Positions 14,301 through 40,443 of a stretch of DNA of 64,000 nt are shown piece by piece. The position numbers and the translations under genes were made by a program. The first letter of the stretch is position 1, and the number at the start of each line of letters is the position of its first letter. The DNA is from Sphingobacteriaceae bacterium (lineage in GTDB: Bacteria > Bacteroidota > Bacteroidia > Sphingobacteriales > Sphingobacteriaceae). Under the pieces are notes generated by a model, which ran no database searches, was not told the origin of the DNA, and worked only from the letters and a program-made list of their open reading frames with translations. The stretch is from assembly GCA_029266635.1 (NCBI GenBank), contig JAQSWM010000011.1, positions 1 through 64,000 of the forward strand. The letters run 5' to 3'.

Positions 14301-14984
14301 TTAATTACAAACCGGCGCTCCTCCGTTTTCTATCGGCATCGAGATATAAGGGATATCAAGATTCATCCCCCTCGTCAACAGGAACGTTCCAGCAAACAGA
14401 TAAAGCACAGAAATAGCCAGTGCGGGGATCCGAAATTTTCTGAAAAACAATGGTAGAAATGAAGCAAAAAGAAGCAAGGGCGTAGTGCCGAGCCCAAAAA
14501 AGAGCATGAACTTCCCTCCTGCTAACGCCGAACCCGAGTTCAAAGATGCTGCCATTGCCATATAAACCATCCCGCAAGGCAAAAGCCCGTGCAAGGCCCC
14601 GGCAAAGAATCCGCCGTAAGGCTTGGCGAGCCACTTGCCCAGCATTAACGCAATGGGCGCCACAGCCCTCTGCTGAAATCGTGAAAAGCGGCTAGACTTT
14701 TTGCCCGAGAAGTGTGAAAAGGCTATCGCGATGAGCAACACCCCTGTTATAAGGCTAAGCATCCGCTGTAAGCCGATAATATTCAGCCCTTGCCCAATCA
14801 GGCCGGCGGCTAGCCCAAACACCGAATAGGTTATGATCCTGCCCAACTGATACAGCATGCGCTGCAGCAGGGCCAGCCACCCGTTTCCACCAAACGGAAG
14901 CGCCATAACCAGTGGGCCGCACATGGCTACGCAGTGCAAGCCACCAAACAAACCGGTAAAAAAAGCGAGGGCTTCGTAGCTCAC
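14301..14984 (-). CDS. SafE/TauE-like membrane protein of the cbb3 locus
   Basis: A 227-residue inner-membrane protein with about six hydrophobic segments, of the sulfite exporter TauE/SafE (UreH-like) family often encoded with cbb3 oxidases. The N-terminal motif GGLHCVAMCGP holds a conserved Cys pair. A second conserved stretch is HGLLPCGMVYMA. A role in copper delivery or assembly of the oxidase is inferred from context only. The start is a GTG at 14984 that overlaps the TGA of the FixH gene (GTGA), so translation is probably coupled. This is the last gene of the ccoNO operon. Confidence 0.85.
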   Translation of the reverse strand: MSYEALAFFTGLFGGLHCVAMCGPLVMALPFGGNGWLALLQRMLYQLGRIITYSVFGLAAGLIGQGLNIIGLQRMLSLITGVLLIAIAFSHFSGKKSSRFSRFQQRAVAPIALMLGKWLAKPYGGFFAGALHGLLPCGMVYMAMAASLNSGSALAGGKFMLFFGLGTTPLLLFASFLPLFFRKFRIPALAISVLYLFAGTFLLTRGMNLDIPYISMPIENGGAPVCN

Positions 14985-15409
14985 GGCATTTCAATTTCGG
15001 TTTCGAACAGATAATCTTTGCCTTTGGCAGTATATTGAATGCGCATCATCCACCTGCCCGGCTCTAACTGCCCTTTCGCAATTTGTACCTTTCGGTCTTC
15101 ATCTGTGAAACCATTCATCATTTTGTCCATGTGATAATCAGATGGGCGCCTGAAAAGCATCTGATATTTAACCGGAACAGGAAAAGTTATAATGATTCCA
15201 TATTCATTCACCACAATGGCGGGTATTACTTCGTCATCTATTGCATTCTGTTTGAGCTGATAATCCTTGTTGAAGTTCTGCCCTTTTTCGTAGTAATCGT
15301 TTTCGATCAGAGCATCATCCCCGTTCCGCATAATCATGATGGCGCCAAGGCTCACAATAAATATCATGAACAACACCATCCCGATAATTAACTTTTTTCC
15401 CCAGTTCAT
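14981..15409 (-). CDS. ccoH: FixH family protein (CcoH-like)
   Basis: A 142-residue protein with one N-terminal membrane anchor (LIIGMVLFMIFIVSLGAIMIM) and a periplasmic beta-rich FixH domain. FixH/CcoH helps assemble cbb3 oxidase. The anchor is followed by ENDYYEKGQNFNKDYQ, typical of the family. I chose the ATG at 15409 (MNWGKKL), four bases after the ccoG stop, rather than the in-frame ATG at 15433, which would overlap ccoG. It sits between ccoG and safE in the operon. Confidence 0.88.
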   Translation of the reverse strand: MNWGKKLIIGMVLFMIFIVSLGAIMIMRNGDDALIENDYYEKGQNFNKDYQLKQNAIDDEVIPAIVVNEYGIIITFPVPVKYQMLFRRPSDYHMDKMMNGFTDEDRKVQIAKGQLEPGRWMMRIQYTAKGKDYLFETEIEMP

Positions 15410-15413
15410 TTTA

Positions 15414-16808
15414 TTAGAGATTAGGTGGCGCAATAAAAGTGGTTTCCGTTTTGCTGATGATTTTCCCTTCGGAAGTAATGTTTAAGCCGATATCAGATTT
15501 ATATTTTTTGATAGAGGCCCGAGGCCTGATAATGAAGAATGTCAGCTTCACGCTCTCGCCTTTCGCGATGTCGGTTGCCCGATTGATGTACTGGATCTTC
15601 GCATCCTTTTCGGGAAGTTTGATTTCGAACGACATTGTTCCGGGCGTTTTATTCACCAGCTCAATGTTGTAGAGATTGCTCACTGTACCATCATCACGAA
15701 GCTGATACAAAGTGCCCGCCGCCCGCAAAACCCGGGCTTCAATATCCGACCGCCTCACCAGCAATGTAACAAGTGTTCCAAACAAGATCAGCAGTATTGC
15801 GGCATAAGCGTACACCCTTTTGTTCAGCTTGAATGGTATTTTCGCAACAATTTGCTCTTCAGATTTAAAGCCGATGAGCCGTGTGGGACGATTAGTTTTT
15901 TCCATCACCATATCGCAGGCATCTATGCAGGCTGTGCAGTTAATACATTCCATTTGGGTACCCTGGCGGATGTCTATCCCGGTAGGACAAACCTGAACAC
16001 ACAAGCCGCAATCAACACAGTCGCCAAGAGGTGCAATTTCGAACTTAGTGATATGCCCTCGCGGCTCGCCCCGTTCATAATCATATGCAACCACCAGTGT
16101 AGACCTGTCTAATAAGACTTCCTGCAAACGGCCATACGGACAAATGGTGGTACAAACGATCTCTCTCAGGCGGGCAAAGACGAGGTAAAACAGTGCTGTA
16201 AAAACGGTAATTGAGATAAAACCGGAAATGTGTTCTACAACCGGCTCAAAGACGATCTTTAACAATGCCTCCAGCCCTATGATGTATGACAGGAAAACAT
16301 TTGCTATTAAAAACGAAATAGCCACAAAGATGGTGTGCTTCAAGGTTTTCTTGAATACCTTTTCGGGGCTTAGCGGTGCCGCATTCAGCTTTCTCTGTTG
16401 CTGTGCATCGCCTTCTATCCAGTATTCAATTTTGCGGAAAACCATTTCCATGAAGATGGTCTGCGGGCAAGCCCAGCCGCACCAAACCCGCCCCAAAACC
16501 ACGGTGAAGAGCACGATAAAAACCATAAGGGAAAGCAGTGCAAACGCAAACAGGTAAAAGTCCTGCGGCAGGAACACCACTCCGAAAAACACAAACTTGC
16601 GTTCAAGTACATTTAGCAGAATGAGAGGTTCGTCGTTAATTTTCACGACAGGGCCTGCAAACAGCAATCCAAGCAGAAAATAGCTTACTATGCTCCTGTA
16701 CCTATAGAGTTTCCCCTTAATTAGCTTGGGATAGATCCATTTCCTGGCATCTGCAGAGCTGCCCGCTACCTCTTTCGCCTTCGCACCTGTCACTGTTGCC
16801 ATTGCCAT
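15414..16808 (-). CDS. ccoG: Cytochrome c oxidase accessory protein CcoG
   Basis: A 464-residue membrane ferredoxin-like protein (FixG/RdxA) that reduces copper during cbb3 assembly. It has about five membrane segments. A metal-site motif, WCGWACPQTIFMEM, is present. Two [4Fe-4S] motifs follow, CVDCGLCVQVCPTGID and CINCTACIDACD. The C-terminal domain is the periplasmic IG-like FixG domain. It begins three bases after the ccoP stop, within the ccoNO-Q-P-G-H run. Confidence 0.95.
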   Translation of the reverse strand: MAMATVTGAKAKEVAGSSADARKWIYPKLIKGKLYRYRSIVSYFLLGLLFAGPVVKINDEPLILLNVLERKFVFFGVVFLPQDFYLFAFALLSLMVFIVLFTVVLGRVWCGWACPQTIFMEMVFRKIEYWIEGDAQQQRKLNAAPLSPEKVFKKTLKHTIFVAISFLIANVFLSYIIGLEALLKIVFEPVVEHISGFISITVFTALFYLVFARLREIVCTTICPYGRLQEVLLDRSTLVVAYDYERGEPRGHITKFEIAPLGDCVDCGLCVQVCPTGIDIRQGTQMECINCTACIDACDMVMEKTNRPTRLIGFKSEEQIVAKIPFKLNKRVYAYAAILLILFGTLVTLLVRRSDIEARVLRAAGTLYQLRDDGTVSNLYNIELVNKTPGTMSFEIKLPEKDAKIQYINRATDIAKGESVKLTFFIIRPRASIKKYKSDIGLNITSEGKIISKTETTFIAPPNL

Positions 16809-16811
16809 CTG

Positions 16812-17711
16812 TTACCCTCCTTTTTGTCCCTGCGGAGCTTTCGGATTTGGCGGATTTGTGCCCTGCAATGAAAGCACAAAGTTTGTAGCGTCAGAGATCT
16901 GTTTAGGAGTCAGCTTCTTCTCCCACGAAATCATCCCCTTCTCCGGAACCCCGTATTTTATTGTTTTGAATATATCACCCACTTTGCCGCCGTGCAGCCA
17001 AAACTCGTCTGTCAGATTCGGCCCAACCAGCCCCTGACCTTTGTCTGCATGGCAAGCCACACAGTTTTCAGCGTAGATTGCCTTACCGGATGCAATCACC
17101 CCAGGATCTTTGCTTTCTTTTACAGAACTTTCATCGATGTTATTTGCAGAGGTAGCCAGGAAAGCGGCACGTTCTTTAGCTGCAACCTGCATTTCAGCAA
17201 CATATTCCTGCTCCTGCATTTTGCCATATCCCAGCACGTGATAGTACATCAGGTAACCTGCGCCGAAAACTATGGTGCCATAGAACAACCACATAAACCA
17301 CGCTGGGGTAGGATTATCCAGCTCTGCGATTCCGTCAAACTCATGTTCAAGCATAATATCCTTTTCTTCAGACAATGGACGTAGCGACAGGATTTTAGTC
17401 CAGATGCTCGGCTTTTGCTGTTTCAGCTCCCTTTGGTGCGCCGCCCAGTCAGCGTACTCCATAGCAGATTGCTGTACAGGTTTAACGTATGGCTTGGGAT
17501 TCATCAACTCCTCTGCCATAACCTGGACCGCTCTTAGTAAAGCGAGGCATCCAACCAGCACGATGATAGCCCCAAAAATGCAAACTGCTACAAAGAGGTT
17601 GGTACTTAGGTCTCCGGAAGAAGTAACCGGTTCAGCCGGTGCGGCTGCCTGTTGCGCCATCAGGGTACTTGCAGGCAAAAGCAGTAAAAATGTGTACACA
17701 AGCTTTTTCAT
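16812..17711 (-). CDS. ccoP: cbb3 oxidase subunit III, CcoP
   Basis: A 299-residue membrane-bound cytochrome c subunit that feeds electrons to CcoNO. It has an N-terminal signal-like segment, a membrane helix (LFVAVCIFGAIIVLVGC), the CcoP_N domain with a second helix (AWFMWLFYGTIVFGAG), and a single cytochrome c domain with CVACH and a likely Met ligand in PEKGMISW. Proteobacterial CcoP usually has two heme c sites. One is usual in Bacteroidota. The ATG overlaps the ccoQ stop (ATGA). The C-terminal tail is Pro- and Gly-rich. Confidence 0.94.
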   Translation of the reverse strand: MKKLVYTFLLLLPASTLMAQQAAAPAEPVTSSGDLSTNLFVAVCIFGAIIVLVGCLALLRAVQVMAEELMNPKPYVKPVQQSAMEYADWAAHQRELKQQKPSIWTKILSLRPLSEEKDIMLEHEFDGIAELDNPTPAWFMWLFYGTIVFGAGYLMYYHVLGYGKMQEQEYVAEMQVAAKERAAFLATSANNIDESSVKESKDPGVIASGKAIYAENCVACHADKGQGLVGPNLTDEFWLHGGKVGDIFKTIKYGVPEKGMISWEKKLTPKQISDATNFVLSLQGTNPPNPKAPQGQKGG

Positions 17712-17897: not shown

Positions 17898-20018
17898 CTA
17901 TTTGCGTACGTTTTTCACATCAACTCCCAGGCGCTGCAGGTAAGCGATTACAGCTACTATTTCTCTATCGCTCTTAACTTTGATGTTGTCTTTCTCCAGA
18001 TCCGCAGAAATATTTTGGGCTTGATTATCTAAATCCTGATTAGCCAAAGCTTCGTAGCCTGGCGCATAAGGCACGCCTAATCTCCGCATAGCCTTAATCT
18101 TCGATGCGGTGCTTACTGTATCCAGTTGCTGTTCAATCAGCCACGGGTAAGTAGGCATAATACTGCCTGGCGACATGGTTGTTGGATCCATCAGGTGATT
18201 GAAGTGCCACGCATTTGAGTATTTGCCGCCTTCACGCTGCAAATCAGGCCCAGTGCGCTTAGATCCCCAGAGGAATGGGTGATCATACACAAATTCACCA
18301 GCCTTACTATACTCTCCGTAGCGCTCAGTTTCAGAACGGAACGGGCGGATCATTTGCGAATGGCAGTTTACACAGCCTTCGCGGATGTATATGTCGCGTC
18401 CTTGCAGCTCGAGCGGCGAATAAGGTTTTACACTGGCGATGGTGGGGATATTAGATGAAATCATAAATGTTGGCATCATTTCCACCATACCACCAATCAG
18501 GATCGCGATAAGCGAAACTATCAGGAACTGCATTGGCCGGCGTTCTAAGGCTCTGTGGGCTGTTTTCTCTCCAGCACCAGGAACAAATACCGGTGCAAGC
18601 GCCAGGGCTTCGGCAGGTTCATCGCCAAGCAAAACTCCTTTCTTAACTGTTTTAATCAGGTTGTATGTCATCACGATCACCCCGATCAGATACATACCCC
18701 CACCTACAGCCCTGAACATGTGCATTGGCAATACCTCGAGGGTTGTTTGCAGGAATGCCGGATATTTCAGCAGCCCTTCAGAGGTGAATTCTTTAAGCAT
18801 CAGGCCTTGCGCAAAGCCCGACAAGTACATCGGAACCGCATAGAATAAGATCCCCAGTGTGCCAATCCAGAAGTGGACGCCGATGAGCTTTTTGGAGAAA
18901 ATTTCAGTTTGATAAATACGCGGTATCAGCCAGTAAAGAATGGCGAAGGTCAGAAATCCATTCCAGCCCAGCGCACCAACGTGTACGTGCGCTACAATCC
19001 AGTCGGTATAGTGAGCAATTGCGTTTACCTGTTTGAGTGCCAGCATTGGACCTTCGAAAGTTGCCATACCGTAGGCGGTAAGCCCAACAACCATAAATTT
19101 CAGAATGGCGTCGTCACGGACTTTATCCCAGGCACCACGCAAGGTTAGCAGCCCGTTGATCATGCCTCCCCAGCTTGGGGCAATCAGCATAATAGAAAAT
19201 ACTACGCCCAGCGATTGCGCCCATCCAGGAAGGGAAGTGTACAACAAGTGGTGCGGGCCTGCCCAGATGTAAATAAATATTAGCGACCAAAAATGGAGTA
19301 TGCTCAGTTTGTAAGAATAAACCGGGCGGTTTGCCATTTTAGGCAGGAAGTAGTACATCATGCCGAGGTATGGCGTAGTCAAGAAGAACGCCACGGCATT
19401 ATGCCCATACCACCACTGCACAAGGGCATCCTGCACGCCAGCGTAGAGATAATAACTTTTGAAAGCAGAGATTGGAAGCTCAAACGAATTGACAATGTGC
19501 AAAACAGCCACCGTAACAAACGTGGCGATGTAAAACCAGATGGCCACATACATGTGCCGCTCCCGGCGTTTGATGATAGTACCAAACATATTTACACCAA
19601 AAATTACCCAGATAACTGTAATGGCAATATCGATCGGCCATTCTAGCTCCGCATATTCATGCGATGTGGTAAAACCGAGCGGAAGCGTAATTACGGCTGA
19701 AACTATAATGAGCTGCCATCCCCAAAAGTGGATCTTGCTTAACATATCGCTGTACATCCGGGCTTTTAGCAGACGCTGAAGAGAGTAGTAAACTCCCATA
19801 AATATCCCGTTGCCAACAAATGCAAAAATTACGGCATTGGTGTGTAGTGGCCTGATGCGGCCGAAGGTGGTGTATTGGTTAGCCATGTTCATGGCAGGAC
19901 TAAATAACTGAGTGGCAACCAATAAGCCTACAGTCATGCCGATGAGCCCCCAAACAACGGTGGCTATACCGAAGTTGCGGACAATCTTGTTGTCGTAATT
20001 AAATTTCTCGAGCTGCAT
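17898..20018 (-). CDS. ccoNO: Fused cbb3 oxidase subunits I and II, CcoNO
   Basis: A 706-residue fusion of the catalytic subunit CcoN (about residues 1-480, some twelve membrane helices) and the monoheme cytochrome CcoO (about 490-706). CcoN reduces oxygen with high affinity at a heme b3-copper site. Conserved pieces seen are RPLHTNAVIF, WWYGHNAVAFFL and DWIVAHVHVGALGWNG. The CcoO part has a membrane helix (FLIVSLIAILIGGMVEM) and the heme motif CVNCHSQMIRPF. The fusion is the Bacteroidota form. A Crp/Fnr-type box and a -7 element lie upstream, with 55 bp between their centres. First gene of the operon running to safE. Confidence 0.96.
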   Translation of the reverse strand: MQLEKFNYDNKIVRNFGIATVVWGLIGMTVGLLVATQLFSPAMNMANQYTTFGRIRPLHTNAVIFAFVGNGIFMGVYYSLQRLLKARMYSDMLSKIHFWGWQLIIVSAVITLPLGFTTSHEYAELEWPIDIAITVIWVIFGVNMFGTIIKRRERHMYVAIWFYIATFVTVAVLHIVNSFELPISAFKSYYLYAGVQDALVQWWYGHNAVAFFLTTPYLGMMYYFLPKMANRPVYSYKLSILHFWSLIFIYIWAGPHHLLYTSLPGWAQSLGVVFSIMLIAPSWGGMINGLLTLRGAWDKVRDDAILKFMVVGLTAYGMATFEGPMLALKQVNAIAHYTDWIVAHVHVGALGWNGFLTFAILYWLIPRIYQTEIFSKKLIGVHFWIGTLGILFYAVPMYLSGFAQGLMLKEFTSEGLLKYPAFLQTTLEVLPMHMFRAVGGGMYLIGVIVMTYNLIKTVKKGVLLGDEPAEALALAPVFVPGAGEKTAHRALERRPMQFLIVSLIAILIGGMVEMMPTFMISSNIPTIASVKPYSPLELQGRDIYIREGCVNCHSQMIRPFRSETERYGEYSKAGEFVYDHPFLWGSKRTGPDLQREGGKYSNAWHFNHLMDPTTMSPGSIMPTYPWLIEQQLDTVSTASKIKAMRRLGVPYAPGYEALANQDLDNQAQNISADLEKDNIKVKSDREIVAVIAYLQRLGVDVKNVRK

Positions 20019-20046: not shown

Positions 20047-20112
20047 TAAAATTATTGGGGGCGGGTATTTTGCTGAGTGATGAAGATTCTGCCAAAAACT
20101 GATCTTCGTCAC
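20047..20112 (-). promoter_or_regulatory. Crp/Fnr-type box and -7 element of ccoNO
   Basis: The box GTGACGAAGATCAG (20099-20112, read on the minus strand) and the -7-like TAATTTTA (20047-20054, 7 of 8) are 55 bp apart centre to centre. This is the same spacing as at ccoI and ldhA. The position fits a class I activator near -61.5. Confidence 0.65.
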
Positions 20113-20133: not shown

Positions 20134-20292
20134 TCATGGCTCTTCTGTGGGCTTGTCATCCTCAAAAAGAATCCGGATCGCGGGGGTCTGCATATCGTCA
20201 TTCTGGCCATTTTTCATGGCCCAGAAAAAAGCCATAAGAAATGTAAGTGCAAGCAAGATGCTGCAACCTATCAGCATGTAAATGATATTCAT
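20134..20292 (-). CDS. ccoS: cbb3 oxidase assembly protein CcoS
   Basis: A 52-residue CcoS/FixS protein, needed for cofactor insertion into cbb3 oxidase. It begins MNIIYMLIGCSILLALTFLM, has one membrane helix, the family's FFWAMKNGQNDD junction and a short acidic tail. The ATG overlaps the ccoI stop (ATGA), so the two are coupled. The 115 bases downstream carry the ccoNO promoter. Confidence 0.92.
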   Translation of the reverse strand: MNIIYMLIGCSILLALTFLMAFFWAMKNGQNDDMQTPAIRILFEDDKPTEEP

Positions 20293-22685
20293 GTGAGCGA
20301 ATTTTTAGTGGCAAAAAAGTGTGTTGCCACTGAAGTAAAAACAATTATGGTAACGGTGCTGAGCGGCATGAGCACGGCGGCAGTGAGCGGCGAAAGCAAG
20401 CCCTGAACGGCAAACCAAACTCCTATCAAATTATATGAAGCCGAAATGCACAGGCTCAGCCGGATGGTTTTTACACCATCTTTTGCCTGCAGGAGGAACT
20501 TAGGAAGGGAGCTTAAAGAGCGCCCATCCAAAATGGCATCACAGCCGGGACTGAAACTATTGATGTTATCTGTAACAGCTACGCCCAGATCGCTCTGCCT
20601 TAAAGCTCCCGCATCGTTCAGGCCATCGCCGAACATCATAACTTTTTTATCCTGTGTTTGGAGCTTGCTTATATAGTCAAGCTTGTCCTGGGGCGATTGC
20701 CGGAAATGCATCTGCGTATTCGGGAATATCTCAGCAAGGCGGTTTCCATCCGATTCATTATCGCCGGATAACAGGTGCATATCGTATTTTAAAGATAAAG
20801 ACTGGAAGAGCCCCGCCAGCCCCGGTCGCCAGGATTGTTTTAGCTGAAAATAGCCTTTGTAAACATTCGCAATTTCAAGATGCACCACAGACGGCACCTT
20901 CGTTAGGTTCATTTTGCTTACCGATGCAAGCATTGCCGGGCTCCCCATTATTACCTGCTGGCTTTTTATGATACCATACACACCCTTGCCGGGCAGTTCA
21001 GTAAAAGCCAGCACATCAAAGTAAAGACCTGGGTCGAGCCATCTCAGGATCTCCCGGCTCAATGGGTGAGTAGAATTCCTTGCCAGCGATGCCACCATCA
21101 CTTTCTCATCTTCGGTAAGAGTGCCCGAGAATGAGAGGCCAATCGCATCGGGCGAAGTTATGGTGCCGGTTTTATCAAAAACGATAGTATCTACCCTGGC
21201 GAGCTGCTCAACAACATCAGTATTCTTAAGATAAAAGCGATTTTTATCGAAAATACTGAGTACCGCCGAAAGCGTAAAAGGCGTGCTGAGCGAAAGCACA
21301 CATGGACAAGCCACAATCAGCACAGCCGTGAAGGCGTTCCATGCCCGGGCGCTATCGTTCTGCAAAAACCAGTAAGCCGCGGCGCCAATGGCGATGACAA
21401 ACATGGCTATTCCAAAGTACTTCGCTATGTTGTCGTTGAAGTTCTGGATACTGTTATCCTTTTCGGCGAACGCATCATTGTTCCACAAACGGGTGAGATA
21501 GCTTTGCGAAACAGGTTTTACAACCTCCAGCTCAATTGCTTCGCCCACTTGCCGGCCCCCGGCGTAAACAATCTCCCCCAAAACCTTACTCACTGGTTCA
21601 GATTCGCCGGTTACGAAGCTAAAATCGACTGTAGCATTGCCCTTCATCAGAATGGCATCTGCAGGTATGATCTCGTTGTTACGGATGAAGATCCTGTCGC
21701 CAACTGCAAGTTCTTCAATGGCTACAGACTTCTCCCGGATTCCGCGGAGCACCGTAACCGCAACAGGAAAATAGGAACGGTAATCGCGTTTAAACGACAG
21801 GTGATAATAGGTGCGTTGCTTAACCCATCTGCCCATTAGCAGCAAAAAGACCAAGCCAGTTAAGGTATCAGTAAAACCTGGGCCAGTTTGGGCGATAATC
21901 TCAAAAGCAGAGCGCAGGAACAAAACAGCGATGATGAGAGCCAGGGGTGCATCCAGATTCACCATTTTGTTCTTCAATCCCGCGACAGCGGAAACAAAGA
22001 ACTCGCGTGCACTGTAAAAAGTAACTGGAATGGCAAAGGCGAGGTTGAGCCAGGTGAATAAGGTCCGGAACTGCTGCTCGAAAGAAGAAAGGCCGAGATA
22101 TTCGGGAAAACTGAGCAGCATGACGTTGCCCATGCAGAATCCGGCAACCGCAATCCGTTTGATCAGTTCACGATTTACAGATTGCTGCTTTTCTTTCACA
22201 ACATCCTGCAAGCTGATGAGCGGCTCATATCCTACCGAAACCATGAGCTCCACGAGTTTCCGAAAGGAAATTTCCTGATGTTTAAACGTGATGGAAACCT
22301 GTTTTTTCAGGAAATCTATCCGCGAATGCACAACCCCTTTATCCAGCTTGTGCAAGTGTTCCAACAACCAGATGCAAGAGCTGCAGTGGATTGCCGGAAC
22401 ATAAAAGCTTACTACCGTTATATTTTCATCAGCATAATCCACCAATTTGGCAGCAATCCCGGGTTCATCCAGATATTCGTAATGCTGAAGCGACTGAGCC
22501 TGAGTTTGGCCAGGAGCATCATTGTAAGTATAATAGCTGCACAGGTTATTGGAAGACAGAACCTGATACACGCTCTGGCAGCCTATGCAACAGAAAGATT
22601 TTCCATCATATTGGTAAGGTGCTTTCGGATTTTCTGTACCGCAATGATAGCATTGCGTATCTGTTAAGGTAAATGTTGACATCAA
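20289..22685 (-). CDS. ccoI: Copper-transporting P-type ATPase CcoI (FixI)
   Basis: A 798-residue P1B-type ATPase that exports copper for cbb3 assembly. The N-terminal metal-binding region has CYHCGTENP and CCIGC. An HMA domain with HCSSC follows. Eight membrane helices are expected, with the ion-binding VACPCVLSL. The phosphorylation motif is DKTGTITS and the hinge is GDGLNDAGAL. The double Cys-rich N-terminus is the FixI/CcoI subtype rather than general CopA. It is followed by ccoS and preceded by a palindromic Crp/Fnr box. Start at the first ATG, MMSTFTLTD; the second Met may also serve. Confidence 0.94.
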   Translation of the reverse strand: MMSTFTLTDTQCYHCGTENPKAPYQYDGKSFCCIGCQSVYQVLSSNNLCSYYTYNDAPGQTQAQSLQHYEYLDEPGIAAKLVDYADENITVVSFYVPAIHCSSCIWLLEHLHKLDKGVVHSRIDFLKKQVSITFKHQEISFRKLVELMVSVGYEPLISLQDVVKEKQQSVNRELIKRIAVAGFCMGNVMLLSFPEYLGLSSFEQQFRTLFTWLNLAFAIPVTFYSAREFFVSAVAGLKNKMVNLDAPLALIIAVLFLRSAFEIIAQTGPGFTDTLTGLVFLLLMGRWVKQRTYYHLSFKRDYRSYFPVAVTVLRGIREKSVAIEELAVGDRIFIRNNEIIPADAILMKGNATVDFSFVTGESEPVSKVLGEIVYAGGRQVGEAIELEVVKPVSQSYLTRLWNNDAFAEKDNSIQNFNDNIAKYFGIAMFVIAIGAAAYWFLQNDSARAWNAFTAVLIVACPCVLSLSTPFTLSAVLSIFDKNRFYLKNTDVVEQLARVDTIVFDKTGTITSPDAIGLSFSGTLTEDEKVMVASLARNSTHPLSREILRWLDPGLYFDVLAFTELPGKGVYGIIKSQQVIMGSPAMLASVSKMNLTKVPSVVHLEIANVYKGYFQLKQSWRPGLAGLFQSLSLKYDMHLLSGDNESDGNRLAEIFPNTQMHFRQSPQDKLDYISKLQTQDKKVMMFGDGLNDAGALRQSDLGVAVTDNINSFSPGCDAILDGRSLSSLPKFLLQAKDGVKTIRLSLCISASYNLIGVWFAVQGLLSPLTAAVLMPLSTVTIIVFTSVATHFFATKNSLT

Positions 22686-22699
22686 TAAAAATCTATGAG

Positions 22700-22765
22700 C
22701 AAAGATTGCAGCTACAGCGATTTTATTAAGTGAGGGATATTATAGAGGAATGTGATTTAAATCAC
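22700..22765 (-). promoter_or_regulatory. Palindromic Crp/Fnr-type box and -7 element of ccoI
   Basis: The box GTGATTTAAATCAC (22752-22765) is a perfect 14-bp palindrome. The -7-like AATCTTTG (22700-22707, minus, 7 of 8) is 55 bp away centre to centre, giving a leader of about 8 bases before the ATG at 22685. Confidence 0.65.
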
Positions 22766-23538: not shown

Positions 23539-25317
23539 TTATACCACTACCACATTGATTTCCGCAATGCTCTGCTGCAACTTTTTTATTTCAGCACTCA
23601 CCTGATCTGCACAGGCACTGACACTTGGCAACAGGTTCAGGTAATAATCAACGCCTATAAGCAACTGCTCTTTGAACTTGCTTAGTTGCTTTGCCTTTTT
23701 ATCAGCCATAGGCTTTACGCTCATTTCTACATCCTTTTTCAGATAGTCAACATAGAGCTTAAGTTCATTGACGAAAACATGCGGACGGCTTACATTATTG
23801 AGCAAGTTCATTTTGCCGTAAATGTGCTTCACCATTTCCTCTAAGGTGTAAATACCTGAGAAGTATGCCGTGTTCGGGCCAGGACAAATTGCCACTGCCT
23901 TATTCTCCCGAGGCTTAAGCATTCCTTTTTTGATATAAGCCGAAGTAACCAGCCCTTCGCACAGGCAAATTTTCTCAGTTATAGTCGCGAAAGCCTTATC
24001 ATATTCTTCTTCCGAAAGGGCTTGTTCTTTGAGGTTTTTGATCTTTAAGTTCTGATACTCCCGCGATGCCGTGCAGATGGGCTGCTCCGTAAATTCAGTA
24101 TTGGAAACAAGATATTTCTTTGTGCAGGGGCTACCGGGCCGACCTTTAGCAATTCGCTCAAGCCTTTGCTGCTCTGCCGTGCTTTTTCTGAAGTTATTAA
24201 AAGGGATACCCAAGGGAGATGCGCCACTGATGTAAAAGTCGGTGCCATCTGCCGTTGCGAGAAGATTTAACGTAGAATCGTCAACGTTCGTGGCTTCGGG
24301 AACCAAAAGGAAAGGACTGCCCCAGCCGGTGCCATCTAGTTGATAATAATCCTGCAAGAATTCATTTTCCTCCGCTGTGCCGATGCCGCCCTGAACGGTG
24401 ATCCGGGTGACAGGCTTTTGTGCTTCCGGTATACCTTTTGACGTTAATGCAGACTGGTAACTATCAAAAAGCTCATCCGTCATTGCCTGCCGTTTATGCT
24501 TGAACTCTTCCAGGATTGGGCCGAGCAAAAAGCCCTCGGTAGCAAAAGCATGCCCGCCACAGTTCAGGCCTGATTCTATCCTGAACTCATGTACCCAAAG
24601 CCCCTTTTTGGCAAGGAACTTCGCCTGGATGAAAGCAGATCTGTAATCGCTAACTTTCAGGATGATCTTCTTTTCAGCGGGAAGGCCGTTTGCCGGGAAA
24701 AAGCCTTCAAACTCTTCCAGGTAACTGTATAGCCGCGGATTCATTCCAGCAGATAAGATAATTGAAGACGACAAGGTGCTGTTTGCAAAACCACGAAGCG
24801 AGGCAAGCGCATCGGAAAATTTGTCGCCGAGCGGCTGCCCATCTTTCGAGTAATTGATTTTATCAACCTTAGACATGATGTTTACATCCACAGCGCCCTG
24901 GCATATCAGCGTCCGCAACCTCTGCTGCAGAATGTTCTTCGTGGCTGCATCTGTTTCCATCAACATCTCTTCGTATAGCCTTTTCTCAGGCAGATGGTCA
25001 GGCAGCAATTCGAAATACTTGCAAATGTCTGCTCCTTCGCTAAATTCCTCTGCCTTCAGTATGCTGATTTGTTTGCTTATGAGTGTGTGCAAGAGGTCGA
25101 GGTAAGCGGTAATTCGTTTCGCTCTGAAATCCTCTTCCGTAGCGGGAATGCTGACGTAAGGTAATCCGCTTTGCCTCAAATGATGTTCACGCATGCGCTC
25201 TATCATTTGGTCATCAACAATGGAAACCACCGACGAGATGCCGTAGCGGGCAACCTTTAGAGGTGTATCAATAGAAAACCCGAGTCCCAGAACGGGTATA
25301 TGAAAAGTGTGGCTCAT
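23539..25317 (-). CDS. Uncharacterised protein with nitronate-monooxygenase-like motifs and a Cys cluster
   Basis: A 592-residue cytosolic protein I do not recognise by name. Residues 8-36 (PVLGLGFSIDTPLKVARYG), 247-257 (IESGLNCGGHA), 307-313 (TVQGGIG) and 328-336 (DGTGWGSPF) recall the FMN-binding TIM barrel of nitronate monooxygenases. Identity looks low, so this is inference. The C-terminal third has cysteines at 398, 415, 451, 453 and 478 (KICLCEGL, AICPGPN), which could bind an Fe-S cluster. It is the last gene of the ldhA-hemN-PAS operon under a Crp/Fnr-type box, which points to a redox role at low oxygen. Confidence 0.55.
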   Translation of the reverse strand: MSHTFHIPVLGLGFSIDTPLKVARYGISSVVSIVDDQMIERMREHHLRQSGLPYVSIPATEEDFRAKRITAYLDLLHTLISKQISILKAEEFSEGADICKYFELLPDHLPEKRLYEEMLMETDAATKNILQQRLRTLICQGAVDVNIMSKVDKINYSKDGQPLGDKFSDALASLRGFANSTLSSSIILSAGMNPRLYSYLEEFEGFFPANGLPAEKKIILKVSDYRSAFIQAKFLAKKGLWVHEFRIESGLNCGGHAFATEGFLLGPILEEFKHKRQAMTDELFDSYQSALTSKGIPEAQKPVTRITVQGGIGTAEENEFLQDYYQLDGTGWGSPFLLVPEATNVDDSTLNLLATADGTDFYISGASPLGIPFNNFRKSTAEQQRLERIAKGRPGSPCTKKYLVSNTEFTEQPICTASREYQNLKIKNLKEQALSEEEYDKAFATITEKICLCEGLVTSAYIKKGMLKPRENKAVAICPGPNTAYFSGIYTLEEMVKHIYGKMNLLNNVSRPHVFVNELKLYVDYLKKDVEMSVKPMADKKAKQLSKFKEQLLIGVDYYLNLLPSVSACADQVSAEIKKLQQSIAEINVVVV

Positions 25318-26001: not shown

Positions 26002-26011
26002 TTCACCCGAT

Positions 26012-27364
26012 TTAAACTGCTTTGCTGAACAATTGGCTCTCCAGCTTCTTATCCCAAAGCTTTTGGTCAAAACACATACAGATATTGCGAAGAAAGGCTG
26101 TGCCGGTTGGCGTAACTGTAATAGTCTCTCCGTCAATTTCTACCAATCCATCGAATTGTAGCGGAAGAAGCCGATCTATAAACTCCCTGAACAAAGGATA
26201 GTGTGCATTGATAAGTGTTTTACCGAAGCACATAATATTCAGGATATGCCTGCGTATCAGCATGTCTTCTGTAGATAGAAGATGTCCTTTTATCAGTGGG
26301 AAATGTCCGGCAGCTACTTTTTGCAGGTACGATTCTACTTCCTTTTCATTCTGTGCAAAAGCATACCAGCTATCGCTGATCGCGGAAACTCCGAGCCCGA
26401 TTGAAAGTTGGGTAAACTGGTGTGTATATCCCATAAAGTTGCGGTGCAGCTTGTGCTCACGCGAAGCCTTATACAAAGAATCGCTCTCAAGGGCGAAGTG
26501 GTCCATGCCGATATCGTGGTAACCTTCAGCAAGCAGCAGTTTTCTGCCGAGCTCATACAATTCCCGCTTTTCTTCATTGTCTGGCAGGTCGGCTTCGGTA
26601 AATCGGCGTTGGCCGGATTTTATCCATGGCACGTGCGCATAACTGTAAAACGCAATGCGGTCTGGCCGGAGTTTTGCCACCTCTGCAACCGTGTTCTCAA
26701 TGCTGCTTAGCTTCTGCAGCGGAAGGCCATAAATGAGGTCATAGTTGATGGATGTGAATCCGATTTCACGTGCTTCCCAAGTTACTTTTGCCACTTGCAC
26801 AATGCTCTGACGCCTGTTGATGATTGCCTGCACTACCGGATCGAAATCCTGTATTCCCAGGCTCAGTCGGCGAAAACCGGATTCGTACAGTACTTTCAAA
26901 TGTTCGGTAGTGGTGTTTGCCGGGTGGGCTTCGAATGAAAACTCAGCACCCTCTACAATTTCGGCATTATCAACAATACCCGACATTAGCTTATCAAGGT
27001 TCTCAGGACTGAAGAAGGTGGGCGTTCCGCCTCCTAAATGGATCTCCCTGATGCGGGGACGCGAGCCAAGTTCGGCGCAATACATTTGCCACTCTTTAAG
27101 CACCGCAGCTATATAAGGCCCTTCTACGTTGTGATTTTTTGTGATGCGTTTGGTGCATCCGCAAAAGGTGCAAAGGCTCTCGCAAAAAGGCAAGTGGATG
27201 TACAAACTAATACCATCTTCGCTGCTTTCGCGATATGATCGTTTTACTGAATCAAGCCATCCCGGCTCCGTCCATTGTTCCGGCTCCCAGAACGGCACGG
27301 TAGGATAGCTGGTGTAACGTGGCGCCGCCACATTATATTTTTTTATCAGGCTTTCGCTTGTCAT
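26012..27364 (-). CDS. hemN: Oxygen-independent coproporphyrinogen III oxidase
   Basis: Radical SAM enzyme that converts coproporphyrinogen III to protoporphyrinogen IX without oxygen. The 450 residues include the HemN-type cluster motif C61-ESL-C65-TF-C68-GC, the SAM-binding EIHLGGGTPTFF and the typical N-terminus AAPRYTSYPTVPFW. That N-terminus distinguishes true HemN from HemW. The ATG at 27364 overlaps the ldhA stop (ATGA). hemN is a classic FixK/Fnr target, which fits the box upstream of the operon. Confidence 0.95.
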   Translation of the reverse strand: MTSESLIKKYNVAAPRYTSYPTVPFWEPEQWTEPGWLDSVKRSYRESSEDGISLYIHLPFCESLCTFCGCTKRITKNHNVEGPYIAAVLKEWQMYCAELGSRPRIREIHLGGGTPTFFSPENLDKLMSGIVDNAEIVEGAEFSFEAHPANTTTEHLKVLYESGFRRLSLGIQDFDPVVQAIINRRQSIVQVAKVTWEAREIGFTSINYDLIYGLPLQKLSSIENTVAEVAKLRPDRIAFYSYAHVPWIKSGQRRFTEADLPDNEEKRELYELGRKLLLAEGYHDIGMDHFALESDSLYKASREHKLHRNFMGYTHQFTQLSIGLGVSAISDSWYAFAQNEKEVESYLQKVAAGHFPLIKGHLLSTEDMLIRRHILNIMCFGKTLINAHYPLFREFIDRLLPLQFDGLVEIDGETITVTPTGTAFLRNICMCFDQKLWDKKLESQLFSKAV

Positions 27365-28392
27365 ACGGCAATTTTTGAGGGTTCTACAGCACAGGCTTCT
27401 ACGCAGCAACAAGCTGGGCCCACACATTTATCAGAATTCCAGAGATTGAGATTTTTAATGGTCTTTTCAGCGATAACGCCAAGCGCTTCGGCAGTTAAAA
27501 ATGCCTGATGCGGAGTAAGCAGCACTCTCGAATGTTGAATGAATGCCTTGAGAAGCTGATCTTCTATTGGGTATCGGCTATGGTCGAAAAAGAACACGTT
27601 CTGCTCAAATTCATACACATCCATGCCGATCTTGCTTATTTTTTCATCCTGCAGAGCAGCAAAAACATCAGCTGAATTGAATACTGCCCCGCGGCTTACA
27701 TTGATAAGCACCACGCCGTCTTTCATTTGGCGTATGGTTTCTGCGTTCACCATGTGCCTGGTTTGGCCTGTTAGCGGAACATGAAAAGAAATGATGTCCG
27801 ACTCTTTAAAAAGTCGTTTTAGCTCAACCTGCTCGGCACCCAAAGCAGCAACTTTTTCACTCACGTCAGTGATGTCGCATACTAACAAGCGAGCTCCAAA
27901 CCCGCGTAAAATTTGCGCTAAGGCTTGTCCGGTTTGTCCAAAGCCAACTATACCGATTGTTTTGCTGCGAATGGTGCTGCCAACCAAATCATCAAGAGCG
28001 AAGTTGTGCTCAAGCATTTTCTGATGTGCGGGAATAATGTTGCGGTACAAAGCAAGTATGAGCGCAATGGCGTGCTCTGCTGTTGATTCTGCTGAATAAA
28101 CGGGAATGTTGCCAACCTTAATGCCCAGGTGGGCGGCTTCTACCAGATCAATATGATCGGTTCCGGTAGAACGGGTTGAAATATATTTAACCCCGTATTC
28201 TTTTAATTTATGAAGGATGGGGGCCGAAACATCATCGCAAGAACAAACCAATACAGCGTCTTTGCCCTCAGCGTACGACGCCGTTGCCAATGTCAAACGG
28301 TTAGATATCAAGGTGATATCATGCCGCTTGCGGTTGGCTTTAATCAACAGTTCTTTCTCACAAGGCTTTATGCTATACGCTACAGCTTTCAT
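27361..28392 (-). CDS. ldhA: D-lactate dehydrogenase (2-hydroxyacid dehydrogenase family)
   Basis: A 343-residue NAD-dependent dehydrogenase that reduces pyruvate to D-lactate in fermentation. The NAD loop is GIVGFGQTGQ. Catalytic residues are the Arg of NVSRGAVF, the Glu of MDVYEFEQ and the His of LLTPHQAF. YEFEQNVFFFDHS is typical of the LdhA group. I chose the ATG at 28392 (MKAVAYSIKP) as it fits the family start. The tail is odd: DKCVGPACCCVEACAVEP has six cysteines in 17 residues, which is not a normal LdhA end. First gene of a four-gene low-oxygen operon. Confidence 0.9.
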   Translation of the reverse strand: MKAVAYSIKPCEKELLIKANRKRHDITLISNRLTLATASYAEGKDAVLVCSCDDVSAPILHKLKEYGVKYISTRSTGTDHIDLVEAAHLGIKVGNIPVYSAESTAEHAIALILALYRNIIPAHQKMLEHNFALDDLVGSTIRSKTIGIVGFGQTGQALAQILRGFGARLLVCDITDVSEKVAALGAEQVELKRLFKESDIISFHVPLTGQTRHMVNAETIRQMKDGVVLINVSRGAVFNSADVFAALQDEKISKIGMDVYEFEQNVFFFDHSRYPIEDQLLKAFIQHSRVLLTPHQAFLTAEALGVIAEKTIKNLNLWNSDKCVGPACCCVEACAVEPSKIAV

Positions 28393-28409
28393 GCAATTTT
28401 TCTTTGCAT

Positions 28410-28475
28410 CAAAGTTAGCTTTGGGCACAGGCCATACGAGTGAGGCTAATCAGAGAGAAAAGTGATCTTCGTCAC
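28410..28475 (-). promoter_or_regulatory. Crp/Fnr-type box and -7 element of the ldhA operon
   Basis: The box GTGACGAAGATCAC (28462-28475, minus) and the perfect -7 TAACTTTG (28410-28417) are 55 bp apart centre to centre. The ATG follows 18 bases after the -7. Confidence 0.75.
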
Positions 28476-28527
28476 AAACTCTCTCGCGGATGTGCGCTGA
28501 TAAGTTCTTGTGAGATGAGAAAAGGTG

Positions 28528-28781
28528 TCCCGCGATTACGCCGATGTGCGCTGAGGTTCTGCGAAAATCAGCGAGATCGGCGGGAAGGAAAAATATAGAG
28601 CTCCCGCAGAGTACGCAGATGTGCGCTTGACAGGTTCTGCGGAAATCAGCGAGATCAGCGGGAAAGAAAAATATAGGAGCTCCCGCAGATTACGCAGAGA
28701 ACCGCAGATGCCTTTCTCCAGCCGAGAGAACAATCGCAGATGGCGCTGATTGGATTTTGCGGAAATCAGCGAGATCAGCGG
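28528..28781 (+). repeat. Three tandem palindromic repeat units next to GxxExxY gene
   Basis: Units lie at 28528-28585, 28602-28663 and 28681-28781 (the last with extra sequence inside). Each opens with TCCCGC(A)GA(T)TACGC and closes with AAATCAGCGAGATC(A/G)GCGGGA. They are separated by near-identical spacers such as GAAAAATATAGAG. The ends are imperfect inverted repeats. They fill the gap between the ldhA promoter and the GxxExxY gene and belong to the family at 1517-1652 and 36836-37062. Confidence 0.85.
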
Positions 28782-28787
28782 AAATAA

Positions 28788-29165
28788 TTACAGCCCATTA
28801 ACCTTCCTGAAAATAGCTTTATCAATCTCCACACAATTGAAATTAACCAACAAACCCAGCTTCTTACCGGATAACTTCAAATAAGTAATTACTTGTTTAT
28901 GATGTACTTCCGCCAAGTTCTCCACCGACTTAATTTCAACAATCACCTTATCCTCCACCAGCAGATCAAGTCTGTAGCCAACCTCTAATTTAATTTCATC
29001 ATAGACCAGCGGTAAAGGGGTCTGCTGCCTTACATGCAACCCATTTTTCTGCAACTCGTATGCTAGTGCCGCTTCGTAGGCAGATTCAAGCAGCCCCGGT
29101 CCGAGAGCATTAAAGACTGCAAAAATCGCTCGCCTTATCTCATATGAAATCTCATTTTCTGTCAC
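28788..29165 (-). CDS. GxxExxY protein, PD-(D/E)XK nuclease-like
   Basis: A 125-residue member of the GxxExxY family (PDDEXK_3). The name motif is GLLESAY (G24, E27, Y30). The nuclease-like core is complete: D67 in YRLDLLV, E77-I-K79 in VEIKSV and a RecB-like Q91-xxx-Y95 in QVITYLKL. The biological role of the family is not established. The stop lies seven bases from a tandem block of palindromic repeats. The start is two bases after the stop of the Crp/Fnr-type regulator gene on the same strand, so it may share that transcript. Confidence 0.85.
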   Translation of the reverse strand: MTENEISYEIRRAIFAVFNALGPGLLESAYEAALAYELQKNGLHVRQQTPLPLVYDEIKLEVGYRLDLLVEDKVIVEIKSVENLAEVHHKQVITYLKLSGKKLGLLVNFNCVEIDKAIFRKVNGL

Positions 29166-29167
29166 CG

Positions 29168-30220
29168 CTACTGCTTGATCCTGCTCAGCTTGCTCACAGA
29201 CAGAATATTGATCACGCTTCCTTCTTTTTCAATCAGGCTTTCATCTTTGAAATCTGCAAGCGTACGGCTGATAGTTTCATTCGCTGTGCCAACCATCGCG
29301 GCAAGATCGTCTCTTGATATTTTCACGGAACATTTATCGGCTTGGCCACCGAACTTTTCAGCCAGATTCACCAGTGCATCCGCTACACGCTTCCGAACGG
29401 AATTGTATGCCAGCTTAAGCAATTGTTCCTGCTTTTCCTGGACATGACCTGAGAGCAGTTCGATGAACTTCTTTGATATCCCGGGATTTTTGAACAACAA
29501 AGCATTGAATTCATCACGCGAAAGGAGGTGCAATTCTGAAGCTTCGAGCGTTTCTGCATTATCGCGGCACGGCTTGTTCAGCAGCACAGAATCGTAGCCA
29601 AAAAATTCGCCGGCTGCATACATACCGGTGGCTATTTCACGGCCATCCTGGTAAACCATGTAAGTACGTACGCTGCCGCTTTTAACCAGATAAACACTCA
29701 GCGGATGATCGCCTTCGGAATAAATATTTTGTTTCTTCTTATAGCTTCGCAGGCGGCTGTTCAAAGATAGTTCATCGAGCAGCTTTGCCGAACGGGCCTC
29801 ATCCAGCAAGCCTTCGAACGAGGCAGTGCTTCCTAAATTCTTTTTAAGCGAATCTCTTTTCTGCAAGCGTGTTTCTATGGCATTTAATAACTCCATATCA
29901 TCAAAAGGCTTGGTGAGATAATCATCGGCGCCCATCTCCATACCTTTGCGCAAATCAGCCCGCTCGGCCTTGGCGGTCATGAAAATAAACGGAATATTCG
30001 CAGTCTGTTCATTTTTATTGAGCATATACAGCACGCCGTAGCCATCCAGTTCTGGCATCATAATATCACAAAGAATAACGTCTGGCAGATGCGCCTGGGC
30101 CAACTCCACTCCCTTCCTCCCATTTTCTGCGGCGTAAACTTTGTAATCAGCAAGCTCAAGAATTTCCGTAGTGCTTTCGCGGATATCCTGGTTATCCTCA
30201 ATAATTAAAATAGATTTCAT
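29168..30220 (-). CDS. Response regulator fused to a Crp/Fnr-type DNA-binding module
   Basis: A 350-residue regulator. The receiver domain (1-125) has the phosphoacceptor D52 in ILCDIMMPELDG and the conserved Lys in LTKPFDD. A linker leads to a cNMP-binding-like beta-roll (about 155-270, KKQNIYSEGDHPLSVYLVKSG) and a Crp-type HTH (about 290-345). The recognition helix GTANETISRTL keeps the Glu, Ser and Arg of Fnr (ETISR at 315-319). There is no N-terminal Cys cluster of the Fnr type, so control should come from phosphorylation. It overlaps the upstream FixL-like kinase by four bases (ATGA). It is the best candidate for the protein that binds the boxes in this window. Confidence 0.88.
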   Translation of the reverse strand: MKSILIIEDNQDIRESTTEILELADYKVYAAENGRKGVELAQAHLPDVILCDIMMPELDGYGVLYMLNKNEQTANIPFIFMTAKAERADLRKGMEMGADDYLTKPFDDMELLNAIETRLQKRDSLKKNLGSTASFEGLLDEARSAKLLDELSLNSRLRSYKKKQNIYSEGDHPLSVYLVKSGSVRTYMVYQDGREIATGMYAAGEFFGYDSVLLNKPCRDNAETLEASELHLLSRDEFNALLFKNPGISKKFIELLSGHVQEKQEQLLKLAYNSVRKRVADALVNLAEKFGGQADKCSVKISRDDLAAMVGTANETISRTLADFKDESLIEKEGSVINILSVSKLSRIKQ

Positions 30221-31404
30221 TTCTGCTTAAATGTTAACTTAATGGTTGTGCCCTCGTTCAGCACGCTTTTATATACTACTTCGCCGCCCATCAACTCGGC
30301 GTAACGTTTTACGATGTTTAGGCCCAGGCCCGTGCCCGGAATGTTGCCCGTGTTATGAGCCCTGAAAAATGGTTCGAAAAGGCTTTTCTGTTCTTCTTCC
30401 GGTATCCCGATACCGTTATCCTTTACCATGATGCTAAGTTCGTTATCAGTTAATTCTGTATCAAACTCTATGAAAGTGTTCTCTCCTGAATACTTGATAG
30501 CATTTGAAATAAGATTGATCACGGTATTTTTCAGCAATGCAGGATCCAGGTACACTTTTGCTGAAACTCCTGTATGCTGATAGACAATATTCTGGTTTTG
30601 CTTGGCGATGAGCTGCATCTCCTCAATAATTTCTTCAGAGAACCTGACGATATCGAACTCTTGATAGCTGGCCTGCGTTTTCCCCGCCTCCAATTTCTCT
30701 AGCGAAAGGAAATCATTCAAAATCCCGGTAAGGTGCCCAACAGAGTTCTTGATTTTTCCGGTGTGCTTCAAAATATTCTCTACGTCCGGCTTTTGCAGGT
30801 ACTTTTCAATAAGAGATGCCGAAAGTTGCACAGAGCTGAGTGGCGTCCTGAATTCGTGCGAAGCCATGGACACAAACCGCGTTTTGAGCTGGTTGAGCTC
30901 CTTCTCTTTTTCAAGCGATAAACTCACGTCTTCCTTTGCTTTTTCCAGTTCGTGGACAAGTGTTTGCAGCACTTCAGTACGCTCCCGGATGCGTTCCTCC
31001 AATTGTTCAGTATATTTCTTCAGCTTGGTCTCTGCCGATTTCTCTTTCGAGAGATCATGAATAAAGCCTGTATAAATCACACGATTTTCGTACTCCACCT
31101 CACTTACAGCAAGCCTGAAGGGAAATGTAGTATTGTCTTTGCGAAGCCCAAGCACTTCCCTTCCAATGCCAATGATCCTTCTTTCGCCGGTGGTCTGATG
31201 GCGCTCCAGATAACCGTCGTGGGCGCTTTTATCGGGTTCCGGCATCAGCATAGAAATATTTCTGCCAATCACGTCCTCTTCTCTATATCCGAACAAGGCC
31301 AGCGCAGCAGGATTGATAGACTCTACTATGCCGCGAGTGTCAATGGTAATTATTCCATCTATGGCGGTGTTGATAATTGCGTTGAGAAGCCTTGCCTGTT
31401 CCAT
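30217..31404 (-). CDS. FixL-like heme-PAS oxygen-sensing histidine kinase
   Basis: A 395-residue soluble kinase. The PAS domain (about 5-120) is strikingly like rhizobial FixL: MPEP (54-57), then H62-DGYLER68, TGERRIIGIGR82 and a closing YTGFIHDLS. In Bradyrhizobium FixL the heme ligand is H200, with R206 and R220 in the pocket. The spacing of 6 and 20 residues is identical here. A coiled coil follows (about 122-175). HisKA has H183 in MASHEFRTPL. HATPase shows NLISNAIKYSG, DNGIGIPEEE and GTGLGLNIVK. It lacks the membrane helices of some FixL proteins. It overlaps its partner regulator gene. Confidence 0.88.
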   Translation of the reverse strand: MEQARLLNAIINTAIDGIITIDTRGIVESINPAALALFGYREEDVIGRNISMLMPEPDKSAHDGYLERHQTTGERRIIGIGREVLGLRKDNTTFPFRLAVSEVEYENRVIYTGFIHDLSKEKSAETKLKKYTEQLEERIRERTEVLQTLVHELEKAKEDVSLSLEKEKELNQLKTRFVSMASHEFRTPLSSVQLSASLIEKYLQKPDVENILKHTGKIKNSVGHLTGILNDFLSLEKLEAGKTQASYQEFDIVRFSEEIIEEMQLIAKQNQNIVYQHTGVSAKVYLDPALLKNTVINLISNAIKYSGENTFIEFDTELTDNELSIMVKDNGIGIPEEEQKSLFEPFFRAHNTGNIPGTGLGLNIVKRYAELMGGEVVYKSVLNEGTTIKLTFKQK

Positions 31405-31477: not shown

Positions 31478-31521
31478 GTGACGGACGTCATTTCTCACGG
31501 ACCCCAAACGCCTGAATTTTG
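31478..31521 (+). promoter_or_regulatory. Crp/Fnr-type box and -7 element of the pta operon
   Basis: The box GTGACGGACGTCAT (31478-31491) lies 33 bp, centre to centre, from GAATTTTG (31514-31521, 7 of 8 to TAnnTTTG). That fits a class II activator near -41.5. The ATG is 22 bases after the -7. The box also lies upstream of the divergent FixL-like gene. Confidence 0.65.
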
Positions 31522-35774: not shown

Positions 35775-35818
35775 GTGACACAGGTCATATAAAAGCGATC
35801 GTAAACAAAGGAGTTTTG
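35775..35818 (+). promoter_or_regulatory. Crp/Fnr-type box and -7 element of the universal stress protein gene
   Basis: The box GTGACACAGGTCAT (35775-35788) and GAGTTTTG (35811-35818, 7 of 8) are 33 bp apart centre to centre. This is the same geometry as at 31478-31521. The ATG is at 35844. Confidence 0.65.
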
Positions 35819-40329: not shown

Positions 40330-40366
40330 ATGACGTAAATCACCTCCAATAGATGACCAAAGTCAC
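40330..40366. promoter_or_regulatory. Two Crp/Fnr-type boxes in the hpf divergent region
   Basis: ATGACGTAAATCAC (40330-40343) and ATGACCAAAGTCAC (40353-40366) are 23 bp apart centre to centre, near two helical turns. The second is 55 bp from a weak -7-like GACTTTTA (40411-40418) of the gene at 40444. Confidence 0.55.
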
Positions 40367-40443
40367 CATCCTGCTTGAGGAGAGTCATTCCCAAAGCCTG
40401 TTACAATGCTGACTTTTACATCAACAACCAAAACTAACAGATC

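Follow-up and report, generated by a model that had tools for sequence, protein, structure and literature searches.

A FixL-type PAS kinase and a receiver-Crp regulator as a conserved gene pair and probable microaerobic switch in Sphingobacteriaceae

Soil and water abound in aerobic Bacteroidota, yet we found no paper in the open-access literature on how they turn on high-affinity respiration. The locus described here lies in a 64,000-nucleotide stretch of Sphingobacteriaceae DNA (the window), where the minus strand encodes a FixL-like sensor kinase of 395 residues (30217..31404) and a 350-residue response regulator with a Crp/Fnr output (29168..30220). Stop and start codon overlap as ATGA (30217..30220), which likely couples translation of the two genes. 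A preliminary description of this DNA had placed both reading frames and their four-nucleotide overlap correctly. Taken in aggregate, the data show that the pair is real, conserved and coherent as a system, and we regard it as a variant of the oxygen circuit built on FixL and Crp/Fnr proteins. It is probably a microaerobic two-component switch: a heme-PAS kinase would phosphorylate the regulator, which would then activate genes directly from DNA dyads.

The kinase matches the Pfam families PAS (residues 7-118), HisKA (with H183) and HATPase_c, and it lacks an N-terminal membrane segment. Its predicted FixL-type heme-PAS domain (31054..31386, minus strand) has FixL chains as its closest PDB relatives. 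Against all solved structures, Sinorhizobium meliloti FixL (RmFixL) is matched with an E-value of 3.5e-32 and Bradyrhizobium japonicum FixL (BjFixL) with about 1e-31 (range ~1e-32 to 1e-30); the next-best structure, Escherichia coli DosP (EcDosP), follows at 1e-16. Alignment with the FixL structures, a check that the preliminary description had proposed, is gap-free over 112 residues. Identity is 57/112 (51%) to RmFixL and 52/112 (46%) to BjFixL, and the two rhizobial domains share 66/112 with each other. As judged from these alignments, the likeness to FixLs is far above chance. The NCBIfam equivalog for sensor protein FixL gives 177.5 bits at a cut-off of 850, with a model built for the 485-residue rhizobial FixL.

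In BjFixL numbering, H62 is equivalent to H200, R68 to R206, R82 to R220, I77 to I215, L98 to L236 and V100 to I238; the first three were already recognized in the preliminary description. The kinase PAS thus has the His200, Arg220 and hydrophobic I215/L236/I238 equivalents of the FixL heme class. For conservation, 80 orthologous loci were collected and 78 kinases aligned. The His/Arg trio had been expected to be conserved in orthologues; H62 and R82 are indeed invariant in the 78, but R68 varies, being R in only 40 kinases and otherwise mostly N (28), more rarely H (7) or S (2), which reduces the trio to a duo. This variation is not judged to be refuting, because S. meliloti FixL variants at R200, the R206 equivalent, still bind heme with unchanged spectra (PMC10765370). 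By analogy, the R206 equivalent is probably not essential for heme. O2 binding by S. meliloti FixL is, by contrast, affected at I209, the residue that corresponds to I77 of the present kinase (PMC10765370). Beyond these residues, the whole FixL pocket (H200, Y203, I215, I216, R220, V222, L236, V/I238, F/Y249 and G251; BjFixL numbering) persists, apart from conservative exchanges, in all FixL-type partner kinases that were tested, both in Sphingobacteriaceae and in other families of the same class.

One possibility would be that the pair is a genuine two-component system for respiration whose PAS domain senses redox, another ligand or nothing at all (a structural PAS), rather than O2 via heme. 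In several other families of Bacteroidota, the kinase beside the regulator has a different PAS domain, in which the His and mostly the Arg are kept and Y203, I215, V222 and L236 are lost. In a tree, this non-FixL class, which comes from deeper Bacteroidia, is a clade of its own (12 rows, support 98/100). As H62 and usually R82 recur in it, and as R68 varies, the H/R/R trio was dropped as a heme signature: what is diagnostic is the full pocket, and not the His and Arg letters by themselves. At two further loci (L165, L166) the neighbouring kinase has a sensor region that cannot be aligned with the FixL-type PAS. Either arrangement implies that different sensors can serve the regulator, a point in favour of a non-heme reading. 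Against that reading, Sphingobacteriaceae partners keep the entire FixL pocket, FixLs are their closest solved relatives, and in two other Bacteroidota genomes (L256, L258) a FixL-type PAS kinase lies head-to-head with cbb3 genes, with no receiver-Crp regulator there and a HisKA_3 core in L258. A PAS domain that does not sense O2 through heme is, on balance, unlikely.

The second component, the regulator, matches Response_reg, cNMP_binding and HTH_Crp_2 in Pfam. Its sequence joins a receiver (residues 4-116) to a cNMP-type beta-roll (158-245) and a Crp-type helix-turn-helix (277-347) containing E315..S318-R319. All 38 regulators compared, distant ones included, have D9, D52, T82 and K104 in the receiver, so the protein should be phosphorylated in the normal way. 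E315, S318 and R319 of the recognition helix are invariant in the 78 regulators, of 79, that have the region. This E..SR helix is that of FNR and FixK, in line with an FNR alignment, and the Crp-type fold also agrees with these proteins. The Fe-S cysteines of FNR are absent: of the regulator's three cysteines only C51, beside the phosphorylation site, is conserved, and the protein is therefore not an Fe-S Fnr. An AlphaFold2 model has two well-folded domains (pLDDT 86) joined by a poorly defined link (129-143), with an unreliable inter-domain arrangement (pTM 0.41). Among the matches listed, a fold search with this model found only Crp-type chains, and a profile search of solved structures found no chain covering both the receiver and the Crp part.

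The preliminary description had read this architecture as a FixJ receiver fused to FixK, one protein doing the job of both. The circuit logic of that proposal is well supported, but the literal fusion is not. A fusion acquired from Alphaproteobacteria might be suspected from the FixL-like PAS, and over the Crp part of the regulator the best NCBIfam match is the FixK model. That match reaches 97.5 bits against a cut-off of 300, however, and the receiver matches PhoB/PleD/OmpR-type models; on these two results the literal fusion was rejected. Furthermore, the closest solved relatives of the Crp part are generic Crp/Fnr proteins, and many Bacteroidia have the regulator but no FixL-type kinase with it. 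Such an origin is highly improbable. The NCBIfam Fnr model likewise stays below its cut-off (90.4 bits vs 228), and the LuxR/GerE-type output of FixJ is absent, its place being taken by cNMP_binding and HTH_Crp_2. The regulator would be a functional stand-in for FixJ plus FixK, an origin as their fusion being unsupported.

The neighbourhood connects the pair to respiration at low oxygen. All on the minus strand, the window encodes a D-2-hydroxyacid (D-lactate) dehydrogenase (ldhA, 27361..28428, the true start probably being the ATG at 28392); an oxygen-independent coproporphyrinogen III oxidase (hemN, 26012..27427; TIGR00538, 411.7 bits vs a cut-off of 325); a conserved 592-residue protein (23539..25317); a ccoI-type copper P-type ATPase (20289..22685); fused ccoN-ccoO for cbb3 oxidase subunits I/II (17898..20018); and ccoP, ccoG and ccoH (FixH) (14981..17711). 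The 592-residue protein has no Pfam or NCBIfam match, shares 51-65% identity with seven relatives and yields a weak structure model (pLDDT 64). Beside hemN lies a further PAS protein (25336-26136, minus strand), whose PAS is NifL-like and whose C-terminal stretch resembles the start of a kinase core, although neither HisKA nor HATPase is matched there. The segment that separates ldhA from the regulator (28430-29165) contains a gene of the GxxExxY type (PDDEXK_3) together with direct repeats, ~45 and ~38 nt long, that have diverged. It looks like an insertion, since ldhA directly follows the regulator in the closest relatives.

The search through other Bacteroidota that had been suggested at the outset found the kinase-regulator pair kept through Sphingobacteriaceae, usually near hemN and often near cbb3-oxidase genes. 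The two genes are side by side in nearly all loci, hemN is close by in 71/77, and cco genes occur within the flanks of most. Across 61 genomes of the order, ccoNO is present in 50/54 with an orthologous regulator and 1/7 without (Fisher p 2.5e-5, kinship ignored). Two genomes with only a 34% identical paralogue (G047, G059) were counted among those without.

If the regulator acts on these genes, a Crp/Fnr-type site is expected upstream of them. The canonical anaerobox TTGA-N6-TCAA has no occurrence in any upstream set (270 nt upstream of operon genes) and no excess within the window. A de novo look for dyads gave TGAY-N4-RTCA, which is the core of the anaerobox TTGAT-N4-ATCAA (PMC7888657). The same 270 nt were scanned for it, with expectation taken from dinucleotide shuffles. 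The dyad occurs upstream of ldhA in 12/13 cases (expected 0.2), of the 592-residue protein gene in 31/39 (expected 1.1) and of the kinase in 29/81 (expected 1.4). In controls from the same loci it stays near chance: upstream of the regulator it occurs in 4/79 cases (expected 1.5), upstream of ccoI in relatives it is likewise near chance, and upstream of hemN itself it is not above chance (2/72); hemN would, from the distribution of sites, be reached only via the ldhA-hemN or the kinase operon. New here is the enrichment of this Crp/Fnr-type dyad, RTGAY-N4-RTCAY, before the kinase operon, ldhA(-hemN), ccoNO and the 592-residue protein gene. The circuit first proposed for this locus is well supported as to its FixL-type PAS kinase, adjacent receiver-Crp protein, hemN and cbb3 neighbours and conserved Crp/Fnr-type sites positioned for direct activation; it needs amending in that the site is relaxed and that hemN mostly has none of its own.

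Within the window, RTGAY-N4-RTCAY occurs at six sites, all intergenic (expected 0.78; no shuffle reaches six): at ccoI, at ldhA, in the gap between the kinase and pta-ackA, at a universal stress protein gene, and twice at a gene for a 139-residue protein without a Pfam match. The kinase dyad (TGACGTCCGTCA, 31479..31490, start at -86) shares its gap with the divergent pta-ackA gene string. The ldhA-hemN promoter carries a distal dyad (TGACGAAGATCA, 28463..28474) and a proximal one (TGATTAGCCTCA, 28441..28452). Tandem dyads precede ccoI (22731..22764), and a slightly weaker copy precedes ccoNO (TGACGAAGATCA, 20100..20111, start at -93). The universal stress protein gene (35844-36767, plus strand) is preceded by TGACACAGGTCA (35776..35787), and the 139-residue protein gene (40444-40863, plus strand) by three tandem dyads (40331..40387; starts 40331, 40354 and 40376) spaced 22-23 bp. 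In the rest of this genome, where dyads were sampled by pattern, exact dyads are mostly inside open reading frames. More distant genomes have their ccoNO dyads at different positions. Most Sphingobacterium-like kinase promoters are without an exact dyad, so autoregulation is not universal.

Promoters were aligned on the dyad, with positions counted from the first TGA. A second dyad exactly 22 bp downstream is found in 11/12 ldhA promoters at 5 or 6 of its 6 bases; this signal is weaker in ccoNO and kinase promoters. A TAnnTTTG box follows at +57 in 11/12 ldhA and 12/13 ccoNO promoters, at +58 in 12/29 kinase promoters and, where a single dyad precedes the 592-residue protein gene, at +35 in 12/31. 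All of these spacings put the centre of the nearest dyad ~29.5 nt before the box. At ldhA-hemN in the window, the box (TAACTTTG, 28410..28417, minus strand) lies 29.5 nt from the centre of the proximal dyad and 51.5 nt from that of the distal one. TAnnTTTG is the -7 element of Bacteroidota promoters, which places the dyads near -41, the classical position of a class II Crp-type activator, and near -63, that of a class I activator. The tandem dyads of the window (ccoI, ldhA and the 139-residue protein gene) amount to three matches at one mismatch or fewer, against 0.20 expected. Such a geometry speaks for direct activation. The conserved dyads probably mark low-oxygen genes turned on by the regulator, with the 592-residue protein probably a member of the same regulon.

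The dyads might instead belong to another Crp/Fnr protein, with the receiver-Crp protein controlling something else. This genome has two other clear Crp proteins; the recognition helix of one (L168) differs, and that of the other (L169) reads REVISR, an E..SR-type helix, with GTGACAAAAGTCAC sites near its gene. L169 could read a similar site, in which case the dyad may be shared with it or be its own. One genome without the regulator (G041) still has cbb3 genes and a dyad. Opposing this, dyads stand upstream of the kinase-regulator operon itself, and regulator presence tracks cbb3 presence. In addition, the ccoNO dyad is far commoner in genomes with the regulator (19/21) than in those without (3/18; p 3.5e-6), a comparison that follows phylogeny and carries no correction for it. 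Assignment of the dyads to a different Crp protein is quite unlikely, and the receiver-Crp regulator is the likely binder. The locus L190 of this genome (G000:C16:254500-262500) encodes a second Crp-type regulator, with a REVISR helix, and has two identical GTGACAAAAGTCAC sites nearby, before genes for a TauE-like and a small membrane protein; these may form a separate regulon.

In the mechanism that we propose for the switch, H62 would anchor a heme in the kinase PAS. Loss of oxygen from this heme would lead the HisKA kinase to autophosphorylate on H183, and the phosphate would then pass to D52 of the adjacent regulator. Once phosphorylated, the receiver, in place of cAMP (in Crp) or an Fe-S cluster (in Fnr), would switch the Crp-type dimer to its DNA-binding form. 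This dimer would bind RTGAY-N4-RTCAY dyads, often two set 22 bp apart, with the nearer near -41 in the class II position. Genes activated in this way would be ldhA-hemN, the cbb3 oxidase genes and the 592-residue protein gene and, in Pedobacter-like genomes and in this one, the regulator's own operon. A single regulator would thereby replace the series of FixJ, fixK transcription and FixK, with no fixK step.

The full-length receiver-Crp regulator was found in more than 40 genomes sampled across the phylum, all within the class of the window. Its wide occurrence in Bacteroidia without a FixL-type kinase makes it look like an old Bacteroidota regulator to which some lineages joined a FixL-type sensor, and suggests a regulator that stays while its sensor is swapped. 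We lean slightly toward a broader reading, in which aerobic Bacteroidota rely on this Crp/Fnr regulator, driven by phosphorylation, as their main microaerobic activator. It would be old and class-wide, would act at tandem class II sites positioned relative to the -7 box, and would have an exchangeable sensor: in Sphingobacteriaceae and certain relatives a heme PAS of the FixL type, and elsewhere another PAS or an unrelated sensor. The preliminary description knew of no such system in Bacteroidota, and in the full-text open-access literature that we searched, likewise, no such kinase-regulator pair is described for the phylum, nor is a function described for Crp/Fnr-output response regulators. 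These negatives hint that the system may be new; the receiver-Crp architecture is already in public annotation, as a plain 'response regulator'. For the soil and water bacteria of the Sphingobacterium group that carry the two genes, the analysis names a sensor and a regulator and provides a DNA site, the geometry of the promoters and a list of candidate targets.

Comparison with known systems places the pair among several partial likenesses. The PAS pocket recurs in FixL-type kinases of other Bacteroidota (L248, L251, L258), and the kinases at L256 and L258 adjoin cbb3 genes. Unlike the kinase here, those outside the class had a HisKA_3 (NarL-type) core in the three scanned and no receiver-Crp neighbour in the eleven examined. 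'Response regulator' proteins with Crp/Fnr output from Hymenobacter, Runella and Spirosoma plasmids have the same receiver-cNMP-HTH_Crp arrangement over their full length, at 39-49% identity, but their partner kinases are mostly not FixL-type. FNR and FnrN have the Crp fold, the E..SR recognition helix and the TGAY-N4-RTCA core site in common with the regulator. In contrast to it, FNR itself senses O2 by an Fe-S cluster; a receiver and a single conserved cysteine (C51) are found here instead.

The closest parallels in circuit logic are rhizobial. The hFixL-FxkR-FixK system of Rhizobium leguminosarum and R. etli likewise has an oxygen-sensing FixL variant and reaches fixNOQP via a FixK-type protein. 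There, FxkR binds the K-box and still induces fixK (PMC7888657), whereas no intermediate transcription step would be needed here. In the FixL-FixJ-FixK systems of S. meliloti, B. japonicum and Caulobacter, as at this locus, a FixL-type PAS kinase with heme-pocket residues is combined with a Crp/Fnr-type end regulator without Fe-S cysteines, and cbb3 genes and hemN are neighbours or targets. In Caulobacter, FixK is described as feeding back on its own operon (PMC4999443), as is predicted for the regulator here. The present system differs in that its kinase has no N-terminal membrane part, its dyad is the relaxed RTGAY-N4-RTCAY rather than the rhizobial TTGAT-N4-ATCAA (PMC7888657), and there is neither a FixJ with LuxR-type output nor a separate fixK, receiver and Crp part being in one chain. 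As phosphorylated FixJ must first drive fixK transcription in rhizobia (PMC4999443, PMC7888657), the pair would respond with one transcription-translation step fewer, a simpler wiring of the textbook cascade.
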